From positions 1 to 34,153 of IMG/VR virus record IMGVR_UViG_3300042991_000574: a stretch of 34,153 bases of DNA; one strand, written 5' to 3'. The stretch is from a virus. Positions 12,012 through 15,876 of the stretch are shown in pieces. The stretch's first letter is position 1. Each line of letters opens with the position of its first letter. The notes below the pieces were generated by a model that saw only the letters and a program-made list of their open reading frames with translations, ran no database searches and was not told the origin of the DNA. The position numbers and the translations under genes are program-made.

Positions 12012-12194
12012 TCAGAAGTCGAAGGGGTAATGGCACACGGTGACATGTCGAGGGATGGTCATGCAATAGTCGCCATTGCAATCTTTCACGCAAAGAGTGT
12101 TCTTTGCAAAAGGGAACATCACAGTTCCAAGACGTCCGTCGTGCATCTTCACTCGCGTGCCTATTGGATATTCTAGAGAATATTTGCTGTCCAC
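12012..12194 (-). CDS. Small beta-rich (KOW/SH3-like) protein, 60 aa
   Basis: GTG 12194 overlaps the end of the kinase gene by 22 bases. A longer frame from 12302 is an out-of-frame shadow of the kinase in its first part, so the short form is chosen. The segment YPIGTRVKMHDGRLGTVMFPFAKNTLCVKDCNGDY has the pattern 'G-x-x-V-x-x-x-D-G-R-x-G-x-V' of KOW/SH3-like barrels. Such small proteins often bind nucleic acid or protein partners, but no function can be assigned. The start codon is uncertain. Confidence 0.6.
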   Translation of the reverse strand: MDSKYSLEYPIGTRVKMHDGRLGTVMFPFAKNTLCVKDCNGDYCMTIPRHVTVCHYPFDF

Positions 12195-12787
12195 TCCAGC
12201 AAATCCTGGCGCTGTTGCAAGAGCAGTATCTCGCTTGTGTTTTTCATGTGAATGATCTTGTCCACGATTTCTTGCGGAGTCAGCTTGTTTGTGTCGACGC
12301 ATGGAACAGACTCCGGCATGGTCCGATAGATCGCGCGGACATTATCTTTGAAGAAAGAGCCTTCATCTTTCTCTTTGCCGCGTTCACCCATCCGCTCGTT
12401 GAGAACTTCATCGGCTCCATCGAGTCGAATAACGAAGCAGTCATTCGGCATGAGGAAAAGAGAATCAAGATCTATTAACTCTTGAAGCAGGAAAACTTGA
12501 AGAGGTTCGCTCGCGGCTTTCCGATAGACAACACCTGAAATGCCGCAGCGATCGAGAACCACGTCGAGACCTTCATATTCCGCGTGCGCATCATAGTCCA
12601 CAGTTGCGAACAACATGCAGCGGACTCGCTCGTTCATCTGCCGCGAATCCTTGAGGATCGGACGCACGTGCTCACCAAGAGTCGTGGATCCAGGACAACG
12701 GGCATATGGTACGCCGAGTTGTTCCGCCAGCATTCTGGCGATGGTGGTCTTTCCAGAACCGTCTGGTCCTTCGATGCAGAGTTTCAT
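12173..12787 (-). CDS. Deoxynucleoside monophosphate kinase (thymidylate-kinase family)
   Basis: This 204-residue protein starts at ATG 12787 (ATGA overlap with the upstream gene); the frame is open further upstream but that part shadows another gene. The P-loop GPDGSGKTT (residues 7-15) right after MKLCIE is typical of thymidylate kinases. A DR-type motif follows (VVLDRCGISGVVYR), with a lid-like region (ERMGERGKEKDEGSFF). It would phosphorylate dTMP or a modified dNMP to the diphosphate. Its place in a cassette with a ThyA-family enzyme of probable dCMP specificity suggests it may act on 5-substituted dCMP, as T4 gp1 does with hydroxymethyl-dCMP. That substrate is an inference. Confidence 0.85.
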   Translation of the reverse strand: MKLCIEGPDGSGKTTIARMLAEQLGVPYARCPGSTTLGEHVRPILKDSRQMNERVRCMLFATVDYDAHAEYEGLDVVLDRCGISGVVYRKAASEPLQVFLLQELIDLDSLFLMPNDCFVIRLDGADEVLNERMGERGKEKDEGSFFKDNVRAIYRTMPESVPCVDTNKLTPQEIVDKIIHMKNTSEILLLQQRQDLLEWTANIL

Positions 12788-13458
12788 GAACGGCCTTTCG
12801 TTTGGCAATAGTGTATCGCCTTGATGGCGGTTGTACACCATTTGTAGTGCGTCGGAAGAAGGGACAGAGCGACGAAAAGATCTTCGGTCTTCAAAGCCGC
12901 GAGAGCGACTTTGATTCGAGAATATGGTTTGAAGAGATCTTCCACTTCCTCTCGACAAATCGGCGGAGAGACCCATTCACTTCCATTCGGATCGTCGAGC
13001 ATGGTGTCTGCCATCTCATTCACTGCTGACTCTTGCAGAAGAGTCACCGCTGAGAAATGATGGAAGCAAGGACGACTGCCGTGCATTGCCGAGAGCAGAC
13101 AGTTGAGCTGGTTCAGAACGAAGTAGGAATAGAGTGCTCGCGAGTTTATCTGCAGCTCGTAGATTGTCGCGACAAGATGAGTGACATCTTCGTGAGGCAC
13201 GATTTGCAAGCCATATTCTTGATATCTGCCAGACAGTCGATGAGGACTCACTGCTTTGTTGTCGATGGCATTGAGCACATCGAGGAATCCGAGCCCGAGA
13301 GAGAATGCACTGTTCCTCCCTCCTCCGACCCAAGACTGTTGCGGCTTGTCGATAGTGAAATGTTTGGCGACAAGTATTCGTCGCCCTCTCATCTCAAGAA
13401 GCTGGCCGAGTTGATCGCGCCAAACTCCTGTCATCGTCGACGGTTGCTTGAGTCTCAT
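12784..13458 (-). CDS. Unknown protein in nucleotide cassette, 224 aa
   Basis: I cannot assign this protein to a family. It lies between the ThyA-like gene (ATGA overlap at its start) and the kinase gene (ATGA overlap at its end), so the three are probably translated together. It begins with a basic segment (MRLKQPSTMTGVWRDQLGQLLEMRGRRI), followed by GGGRNSAFSLGLGFLDVLNAID, a long helical middle (EDVTHLVATIYELQINSRALYSYFVL) and His/Cys residues (GSRPCFHHF, C124-type positions). No P-loop, Rossmann glycine motif or HNH is clear. A role in nucleotide or DNA modification is suggested only by its neighbours. Confidence 0.8.
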   Translation of the reverse strand: MRLKQPSTMTGVWRDQLGQLLEMRGRRILVAKHFTIDKPQQSWVGGGRNSAFSLGLGFLDVLNAIDNKAVSPHRLSGRYQEYGLQIVPHEDVTHLVATIYELQINSRALYSYFVLNQLNCLLSAMHGSRPCFHHFSAVTLLQESAVNEMADTMLDDPNGSEWVSPPICREEVEDLFKPYSRIKVALAALKTEDLFVALSLLPTHYKWCTTAIKAIHYCQTKGRS

Positions 13459-14297
13459 GCCGTCACCGGAATCTTGATCGCTTCATGTGGAGCATAGTCG
13501 GACAGCTCGCAATACTCTGGACTGAATCCAAGAAGCTGATCGAAGCCGGTTCCGAGATGGCGAAGACTCAGTGATGGAGTCAGTGTGCAACTCCTGTCTC
13601 GCATGATATTGGCCGCTTCGAATTGGTTCTCGTAGATGTGAAGATCACCAACAGAGACCATCAGCTTGCGCGGTTCATATCCGGTGACGTGCGCCATGAG
13701 ATGGAGGAACAAAGCGAACTGAGCGATGTCGTGTGGACCGCCGACGGGGAAGTCCATGGATCGTTGAGTCGCGAGAAGATTCAGACCTCCGTCTTTCACA
13801 CCGAACTGGAACATGACATGGCACGGAGGGAGAGCCATCTCATCGAGTTCATTTGGTGACCAGAGACTCATGATGATACGCCGAGAATCTGGATCCTTGG
13901 TGATGAGATCATAGACGAGCTTCAGCTGATCGGTGCCATCGATCTTTCCGAAGTTTCGCCATTGAGCTCCGTAGATCCGACCGAGGTCTCCCTCTGGCAA
14001 AAGTCCAGGCTCTCGTTCGGCGAGAATGTTCTGCCATTTGTCCCAGATGTGACAGCCATTGTCGTGAAGGAACTTAGTCGTATGTCCACCGTGAATCATC
14101 CACTGCAGCTCGAGAGCGGGCATCTTCATTCCGAGCTTGCGAAGTCCGAGCAACGGGAATCCGTTCCGCATGTCCCAGCTGAATGATTCACCGAACAAGG
14201 AGAGAGTCTGAACTCCAGTCCTGTTCTTGCAGAGATCACCGTGAAGCAGAATGCGCGTGAGCATCTGCTGATAGAGATTGTCGAAGTTGGGTGTCAT
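13455..14297 (-). CDS. ThyA-family pyrimidine C5-methyltransferase, predicted dCMP-specific
   Basis: This 280-residue protein aligns over its full length with thymidylate synthase. Seen: folate/phosphate Arg26 (KNRTGV), Glu63 and Trp85 (HIWDKW), catalytic Cys159 (LPPCHVMFQF), phosphate-binding QRS (178-180), GDLHIY (His220, Tyr222), and a canonical C-terminus (HEAIKIPV). The usual G-x-P-F-N-I-A reads GGPHDIA, so Asp190 replaces the Asn (Asn177 of E. coli ThyA) that binds the dUMP base. In established work, Asn-to-Asp changes in thymidylate synthase switch preference to dCMP, and T4 dCMP hydroxymethylase has Asp179 at this place. The enzyme is therefore predicted to make 5-methyl- or 5-hydroxymethyl-dCMP. 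Which of the two cannot be told; the retained Trp85 and C-terminus do not exclude a methyl product. Plain dTMP synthesis remains possible. Confidence 0.85.
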   Translation of the reverse strand: MTPNFDNLYQQMLTRILLHGDLCKNRTGVQTLSLFGESFSWDMRNGFPLLGLRKLGMKMPALELQWMIHGGHTTKFLHDNGCHIWDKWQNILAEREPGLLPEGDLGRIYGAQWRNFGKIDGTDQLKLVYDLITKDPDSRRIIMSLWSPNELDEMALPPCHVMFQFGVKDGGLNLLATQRSMDFPVGGPHDIAQFALFLHLMAHVTGYEPRKLMVSVGDLHIYENQFEAANIMRDRSCTLTPSLSLRHLGTGFDQLLGFSPEYCELSDYAPHEAIKIPVTA

Positions 14298-14767
14298 AAA
14301 TCCCTCAGAGTGAGTTGAACGGATGGAATGATTCGAGCAATGTGCATGCTCTTGGTCAAGATGTTGCGGGCTTCTTTGTTCTCATTGAGAAGGATGCCCG
14401 CGTTGTATTCAAGATAGAGCACTTCGTTGATCTTGTTGGCCTTGATTTCTCGAAGACAAGCAAGGCATGGATACATCGTGCAGACCAGAGTGCAATCGTC
14501 AAGAGGAGTGCCGAGAGCTGCTGTCGCTTTCCTCATGGCGTTGACTTCGGCATGGATCACAAAGTCGTGTTTCTCTTGACTTTTCCACAGCGTTTCATCA
14601 TCGATGACTCCGCTCGGGAATCCATTGTAGCCGAGAAAGATTCCATGCGACTTGCGATGGATCACTGCTGCTCCGACTTTGGTGTTGCCCTTGGATCGCA
14701 ACTCGGCCCAAAGCATGGCAATGTGAAAAGCAGATTCCTCGATGGAGCACCGTGATTCGCGAATCAT
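14294..14767 (-). CDS. dCMP deaminase
   Basis: ATG 14767 is in an ATGA overlap with the preceding frame, giving 157 residues, the usual family length. The frame is open far upstream to 15259, but the extension does not fit the deaminase family, whose N-terminus is close to MIRESRCSIEESAFHIAMLWA. The zinc site is intact: HAEVNA (His72, Glu74) and PCLAC (Cys101, Cys104). GYNGFPSG (about 47-54) is the typical substrate loop. The enzyme converts dCMP to dUMP. Beside a possible dCMP-modifying enzyme it could both supply dUMP for thymine and drain unmodified dCMP, as in T4. Its stop overlaps the ThyA-family start. Confidence 0.93.
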   Translation of the reverse strand: MIRESRCSIEESAFHIAMLWAELRSKGNTKVGAAVIHRKSHGIFLGYNGFPSGVIDDETLWKSQEKHDFVIHAEVNAMRKATAALGTPLDDCTLVCTMYPCLACLREIKANKINEVLYLEYNAGILLNENKEARNILTKSMHIARIIPSVQLTLRDL

Positions 14768-15214
14768 ACCTTGGAGCCTTTCGAGCGGAGGTAGTCGAGC
14801 ATGATCTTTGCATATAGCACATAGTCGTTGACGAAGATTTGCGGATGATTCTTGCGGACCACGAGCATCGGCCGACTTCTGCGGACGCAAACAGTATGTC
14901 GAGCGCCAACGCCAATATGATTTCGCGCACGCGTGAGATGGAATAACTTCAGCAAGAGCATGAGCAACATGGATACACAACTCCCATTGAGTGATTGATT
15001 CGAGCGAGAAGGTGACACAAGGATGGTGCTTGTGTGTTATTCCGTAAGGCGTGCCATCTTTTTTGAGCATCTCGGTCTTGTTGAAAAGAAGATGGTCGAC
15101 AGTCGCGAGAATCTGACAGCACTCGAGGAGTTGCTTACGCGCTCGGATTGGATCTTTCTCCAAGAACTCGCGAGCAGAGATGCTCGGACTCGGATCGATG
15201 AGAAAGATATTCAC
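14764..15214 (-). CDS. Pyrimidine-dimer-glycosylase-like protein with an internal frame break
   Basis: GTG 15214 forms a GTGA overlap with the small helix-turn-helix gene and starts VNIFLIDPSPSISAREFLEKD.., which, with the later THKHHPCVTFSLESI, resembles a phage family annotated as pyrimidine dimer DNA glycosylase (NIFxLDxDPxxAA.. and HxNHPSxxWxxxS). About 100 codons in this frame look coding. Near 14905 the coding signal moves to another frame, which ends with well-chosen codons (NHPQIFVNDYVLYAKIMLDYL) and stops in an ATGA overlap with dCMP deaminase. A -2 or +1 change is required; reading W-R-W then G-A-R-H across 14907-14905 would restore a family-like R-W-G-x-R-H motif. It may be a real frameshift, a mutation or a sequence error. 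Confidence 0.55.
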
Positions 15215-15354
15215 GGCCAAGTTGCCCGTGTCACGATGTAGTGGATATTGCTTTGGCATGTATCAAAGCACAGAGCAAGATCAACTTGAGAAACCCCTTC
15301 GCGATACCATTTGCGAATGAGCTTGACGGTTGCGAGAGTCTGTCTATGATACAT
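15211..15354 (-). CDS. Small helix-turn-helix protein, 47 aa
   Basis: ATG 15354 follows the shared CCCGAAAGGAT ribosome-binding element and gives MYHRQTLATVKLIRKW then REGVSQVDLALCFDTCQSNIHY. This is a compact helix-turn-helix of the homeodomain-like/resolvase type common in phages: V-K-x-I-R-x-x-Y/W-x-x-G-V-S-Q-x-x-L-A. The stop overlaps the GTG start of the next gene. It is a candidate DNA-binding regulator and could recognise one of the palindromes described in this window, though that link is speculative. Confidence 0.75.
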   Translation of the reverse strand: MYHRQTLATVKLIRKWYREGVSQVDLALCFDTCQSNIHYIVTRATWP

Positions 15355-15417: not shown

Positions 15418-15876
15418 TCAGCTGAAGGCTTGGTGCTTGGTCAGTATAGCGGCAATGTTTGCCGGAATAAAGCCTGAACCTTTTCCCTTGTCCCCACTGT
15501 GTGATGCTGCTCGCGATGATTTCGTCATGTTCGATCGGTGGACTTCTTCGAATGCTTCCGTGAATGGAAGATTGAAAGACGTCGCGGTTCCGATAACCAC
15601 ATAAGCAGAATCAACCAAGCCATCGAGAGTCTTCTCTTGATTGTTCTGCGAGATGCCTTCGAGAACTTCTCCGAGCTCTTCAAGCATCAATTCAACACGG
15701 AGAAACGCGTTGTTTTTTGTCTGCTTGAAGAGATTCTTGAAAGCGAAGGAACTCGCTCGCAGTTCTCTGGCTTGCGCCGCGATGAGTTCTGCCTCTCCTT
15801 CCGTGAGACGCGGCCAAGATGGAGCAGGAGCTCCGACATGCCGCTGGAAGGAGAGGACCGCTTCTTCGAGATTCAT
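15418..15876 (-). CDS. MazG-like nucleotide pyrophosphohydrolase
   Basis: ATG 15876, just after the previous stop (AAGGCCTGAGATG), gives 152 residues; the longer frame from 15921 shadows the upstream gene. The all-alpha MazG/dCTPase-type metal motif is visible: ELMLEELGEV (Glu62, Glu66, Glu67, Glu70) followed by DGLVDSAYVVIG (Asp85, Asp89). EVHRSNMTK (110-118) is typical of the phage/PRA-PH-like subgroup. It hydrolyses a (d)NTP to the monophosphate. In a phage that modifies cytosine, removal of dCTP is needed, so a dCTPase role is plausible but not shown. Confidence 0.82.
   Translation of the reverse strand: MNLEEAVLSFQRHVGAPAPSWPRLTEGEAELIAAQARELRASSFAFKNLFKQTKNNAFLRVELMLEELGEVLEGISQNNQEKTLDGLVDSAYVVIGTATSFNLPFTEAFEEVHRSNMTKSSRAASHSGDKGKGSGFIPANIAAILTKHQAFS

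Follow-up and report, generated by a model that had tools for sequence, protein, structure and literature searches.

We propose that the thymidylate synthase (TS)-family gene of an uncultured phage, located on the minus strand at 14297 to 13455 of the 34,153-base stretch of DNA analysed here (the window, which is one IMG/VR record and may be incomplete), encodes a folate-dependent dCMP C5-methylase working within a cytosine-replacing cassette, so that the cytosine of the phage genome would be largely or fully 5-methylcytosine (5mC). We give this reading a probability of about three in four, and its substrate, its product, the modified DNA and the resulting protection are what we infer. The window TS stands as a new divergent example of an enzyme type that phage Xp12 is known to have and that environmental phages commonly carry; the Asp177 TS and its accompanying gene set in modified-cytosine phages (PMC8670742), and the 5mC phage Xp12, have already been described. 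What is newly added here is the strand, the operon, the call of a methyl-type enzyme, a matched neighbour test and the His176-Asp177 pair.

The gene is an uninterrupted open reading frame of 280 aa, and the plus-strand reading of 13455-14297 was discarded because it contains stops. Its product is a bona fide PF00303 member, with a full-length Pfam match (E 3e-76), PHROG 160, thymidylate synthase, as the best PHROG (E 1.6e-87), and solved TS structures matching at ~35-40% identity, E. coli ThyA among them at ~36%. Aligned with the MG1655 ThyA sequence, the protein keeps R21, E58, W80, D81, Y94, R126, R127, C146, H147 and Q165, and also R166, S167, D169, G173, P175, H207 and Y209, which bears out the claim of an earlier sequence-only reading that the main TS catalytic residues are kept. 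An AlphaFold2 (AF2) model built from 49 aligned family members (pLDDT 94.7) superposes on the E. coli TS structure with Z 38 and an rmsd of ~1.1 Å over 262 residues at 36% identity; given a homologous 280-aa frame whose model superposes in this way, chance is not an issue. The profile match, the catalytic Cys/Arg/Glu/Tyr/Asp set and the TS fold that define the PF00303 superfamily are thus all present.

The residue that sets this protein apart is Asp190 (GAC codon at 13728-13730, minus strand), which lies in the motif GGPHDIA and occupies the column of E. coli Asn177, so that the Asn that marks a canonical dUMP thymidylate synthase is absent. Asp179 of T4 gp42, the dCMP hydroxymethylase, falls in the same column, and the SPO1 dUMP hydroxymethylase has Asn there. 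Both the motif with its Asp and the T4 correspondence had been put forward by the sequence-only reading, and the placement held in the alignment with E. coli ThyA, T4 gp42 and phage Asp177 TSs. Replacement of Asn by Asp at this position converts TS to a dCMP methylase (cited in PMC8670742 from Liu and Santi 1992 and Hardy and Nalivaika 1992). The preceding residue, His189, sits at E. coli Phe176, a position where none of the 169 other aligned family members has His. The pattern GxPHDIA was also tried as a route to near relatives and gave 13 viral matches, all of them non-TS, with no TS form of it in the genome contigs scanned; the His176-Asp177 pair therefore appears, so far, to be unique to the window TS among the sequences searched.

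The sequence-only reading had left the product as either 5-methyl- or 5-hydroxymethyl-dCMP, and of these two the methyl product is favoured. Two residues mark hydroxymethylation, an acid (Asp or, in some enzymes, Glu) at the third place ahead of the catalytic Cys and a Ser or Thr at the second place ahead of the Tyr, and T4 dCH is without the TS C-terminal tail (PMC6400193). In E. coli numbering, position 143, which is Asp in T4 gp42 and SPO1 gp29, is Leu (Leu156) in the window protein, position 92 is Arg, and the protein retains both Trp83 (window Trp88) and the whole length of the C-terminal tail (IKIPVTA), so that neither the signature nor the missing tail of a T4-type hydroxymethylase is found, whereas the features expected of a dCMP methylase (Asp177 with the TS catalytic set, Leu143, Trp83 and the tail) are all in place. 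Leu143, Arg92, Trp83 and the retained tail favour hydride transfer and a methyl product. The Xp12-type phage TSs, with Asn143 and without a tail that can be aligned, presumably make 5-methyl-dCMP, which would render Leu143 dispensable for methylation; it is the absent acid at 143, and not Leu143 itself, that speaks against hydroxymethylation. The best prediction from these residues is a dCMP methylase making 5-methyl-dCMP rather than a hydroxymethylase. We consider it unlikely that the protein is a T4-like dCMP hydroxymethylase, in which water would attack the exocyclic methylene intermediate to give 5-hydroxymethyl-dCMP: Asp177 is indeed common to the window TS and gp42, and TS homologues underlie 5hmC-derived systems among the modified contigs of MetaGPA (PMC8670742), but the active site carries neither signature residue where gp42 has Asp145 and Ser94 and no tail, and the window ORFs that were scanned yielded no hmC-modifying transferase of either the glycosyl or the carbamoyl type, whereas T4 adds glucosyltransferases.

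The methylase assignment gains most from the genes around it, all on the minus strand, and we regard the operon of MazG/PRA-PH enzyme, dCMP deaminase and dNMP kinase as stronger evidence than the Asp residue alone. Immediately upstream, at 14294-15259, a PHROG_624 N-terminal domain is fused to a dCMP deaminase domain (PF00383, E 1.7e-16; PF14437, E 2.6e-9; phrog_174) with intact HAE and PCxxC zinc motifs, its start being possibly a GTG at ~15214. No phage record covers ≥80% of this fused query, and the fusion looks unusual; the PHROG_624 domain is annotated as "DNA binding protein". Downstream of the TS gene lie a translationally coupled orphan gene (12784-13458, 224 aa) and then a thymidylate-kinase-like dNMP kinase (12173-12787, 204 aa; PF02223, E 6e-15; phrog_761), a candidate for phosphorylating 5-methyl-dCMP. 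The orphan protein has no match in Pfam, PHROGs, NCBIfam, phages or viral contigs, and its single-sequence AF2 model (pLDDT 34) is useless. Four-bp ATGA overlaps join deaminase, TS, orphan gene and kinase in that order, and ~160-210 bp upstream of them, the range being set by the deaminase start, is the gene of a 152-aa MazG/PRA-PH nucleotide pyrophosphohydrolase (15418-15876; PF01503, E 1e-9; phrog_671, E 4e-22), likely a dCTP-clearing enzyme if its substrate is as predicted. Taken together, the cassette would follow the logic of cytosine replacement, that is, removal of dCTP, modification of dCMP, deamination of the rest and phosphorylation of the modified nucleotide. Neither a C5 DNA methyltransferase (PF00145) nor ThyX, DHFR or a second TS was found in the window.

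The link between Asp177 and these neighbours was examined in 2.9 million viral contigs (IMG/VR), where the pattern Q-[R]-S-x-D-x3-G-x-P-x-D-I-A found at least 119 loci with an Asp-type TS and its Asn version 120. After clustering the TS loci at 70% identity and requiring flanks of ≥1.5 kb, a MazG/PRA-PH gene was found within 1.5 kb of 16 of the 24 Asp177 clusters and of none of the 50 Asn177 clusters (Fisher p = 1.1e-10, among the matches listed), and with flanks of 2.5 kb the counts were 13/18 and 0/38, again among the matches listed. The MazG/PRA-PH profile was iterated and may have drifted; for this reason 10 matches were checked against Pfam, and nine scored above the curated MazG or PRA-PH cut-off, with L082 just below. 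The window deaminase profile, made from the window protein alone, found few neighbours beside metagenomic TS loci. A maximum-likelihood (ML) tree calculated without column 177 has six Asp/Asn changes, three of them forced by supported branches, and several separate Asp177 lineages carry MazG/PRA-PH; the phylogenetically independent contrasts number only 3-5, so the association is not separable from ancestry. In the same tree the window TS is a lone long branch, which makes kinship a weak guide to its function. In the largest Asp177 clade (L040:5147-5956, L072:601-1371, L034:6792-7583 and others), the MazG domain makes up the C-terminal portion of a longer protein, and the N-terminal portion of that protein is similar to a T5orf172/GIY-YIG-like domain (T5orf172 scores above the cut-off in L040 and under it in L037), so that a nuclease-like domain and a nucleotide pyrophosphohydrolase are fused beside the cytosine-modifying enzyme.

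This comparison also bears on whether the gene encodes a working or dual-substrate thymidylate synthase, with a His189-Asp190 pocket that keeps dUMP activity and a cassette that boosts dTTP. The dCMP deaminase next door makes dUMP, no other ThyA or ThyX was found in the window, and the TS scaffold is fully conserved including His147, which the window protein shares with ordinary TSs and also with 91 of the 119 Asp-type loci (among the matches listed). Nevertheless, ordinary phage TSs retain Asn177, and the absence of MazG/PRA-PH from all the Asn-type clusters does not fit such a role, which we hold to be improbable. The dCMP specificity put forward by the sequence-only reading is, in our view, well supported by residue 177 and the gene neighbourhood.

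Isolated phages show the same arrangement. Asp177 is found by alignment in the TSs of AXL1 (gp63), PaMx28 (gp52), RDJL1 (ThyA) and JWX (39), and in all four it is accompanied by a PRA-PH and a dCMP deaminase, the adjacency also seen in the window. These genes carry the annotation "thymidylate synthase" (L174:6623-7564 in AXL1, L175:37882-38778 in PaMx28, L178:2986-3873 in RDJL Phi 1 and L179:2869-3729 in JWX), and, judging from their residues, they are likely misannotated dCMP methylases. The DNA of Xanthomonas phage Xp12 has complete 5mC, and its close relative AXL1 has DNA with similar restriction resistance (PMC9206674). As in the window, the Xp12/Pamexvirus-type system (AXL1 gp61-64, PaMx28 gp49-53) places PRA-PH, Asp177 TS and dCMP deaminase close together on one strand; in contrast to the window, its TS has Asn143, Pro147, Phe83, Tyr176 and no alignable tail, and these phages have DHFR, which the window lacks while having the kinase, the orphan gene and the fused deaminase. 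The Xp12-type enzymes are thus analogues of the window TS and not close orthologues.

The T4 system shares with the window the Asp at the specificity position and the logic of pyrophosphatase, deaminase, base-modifying enzyme and dNMP kinase (gp56 dCTPase, cd, gp42 and gp1), in which we take cd and gp1 to be the counterparts of the window deaminase and kinase; gp56, however, belongs to PF08761 and the window pyrophosphohydrolase to PF01503. In MetaGPA (PMC8670742), Asp177 is a top residue enriched in modified-cytosine phage contigs, TS co-occurs with PF01503, PF00383 and PF14437, and the two positions that differ most include the His147 site; the window has Asp177 and all three families, but unlike the MetaGPA homologues it keeps His147, which counts against the methylase reading, has His at 176 and yielded no carbamoyltransferase among the ORFs scanned. 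The engineered dCMP methylases L. casei TS N229D and E. coli TS N177D likewise place Asp for Asn on a TS-like active site with its tail, the window TS differing as a natural protein with further changes (His189, Gly187 and a C-terminal Ala).

As for the mechanism, Cys159 would attack C6 of dCMP, while Asp190 would recognise and protonate the cytosine N3/N4 edge; the carbon would come from methylene-THF, and the folate would then transfer hydride, a step enabled by the TS-derived Trp88, Leu156 and C-terminal tail, to yield 5-methyl-dCMP. The adjacent kinase may then phosphorylate this product, the MazG/PRA-PH enzyme would remove dCTP, and the deaminase would drain dCMP to dUMP for dTTP, leaving the phage polymerase to build DNA with cytosine largely or fully replaced by 5mC, which could be shielded from many host restriction enzymes. 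The kinase and pyrophosphatase specificities are predictions, and phage MazG-like enzymes have varied substrates, which counts against this reading. A far less probable scheme is an inverted thymidylate route, in which the TS makes 5-methyl-dCMP and the fused deaminase converts it to dTMP, bypassing dUMP; a single enzyme pair would then govern how much 5mC and how much T the phage has available, and the orphan 224-aa protein might act as a specificity factor, a notion just as remote. The ATGA overlap of the deaminase and methylase genes and the intact zinc motifs agree with it, but no precedent was found in the literature searched, MazG/PRA-PH would be left unexplained, and Xp12-type phages with the same gene pair are linked to 5mC DNA. 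Least credible of all is that the assembly has one wrong base in what is really an ordinary phage TS: GAC and AAC do differ by one base, in a single contig with no second assembly, but the gene context (MazG/PRA-PH, dCMP deaminase and kinase) is that of Asp-type loci, and the MazG/PRA-PH neighbour independently predicts Asp190.

As regards lineage, megablast of the window against 50,697 phage records gave no match, and contigs with a related terminase hold no TS, though most are short fragments. The window also has a dinucleotide bias, with TA at 0.33, GA at 1.48 and TC at 1.47 of expectation. If the dCMP methylase reading is true, an uncultured phage without a close sequenced relative very likely has cytosine-modified DNA, which would affect restriction, CRISPR and type IV defence. 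An Asp177 TS beside MazG/PRA-PH (16/24 against 0/50 clusters among the matches listed) may offer an easy way to predict cytosine-replacing phages from their genomes. Finally, unlike the strongly diverged Xp12-type enzymes, the window TS would correspond in nature to the engineered TS N177D, and could therefore show cleanly how a single residue decides the choice of pyrimidine.
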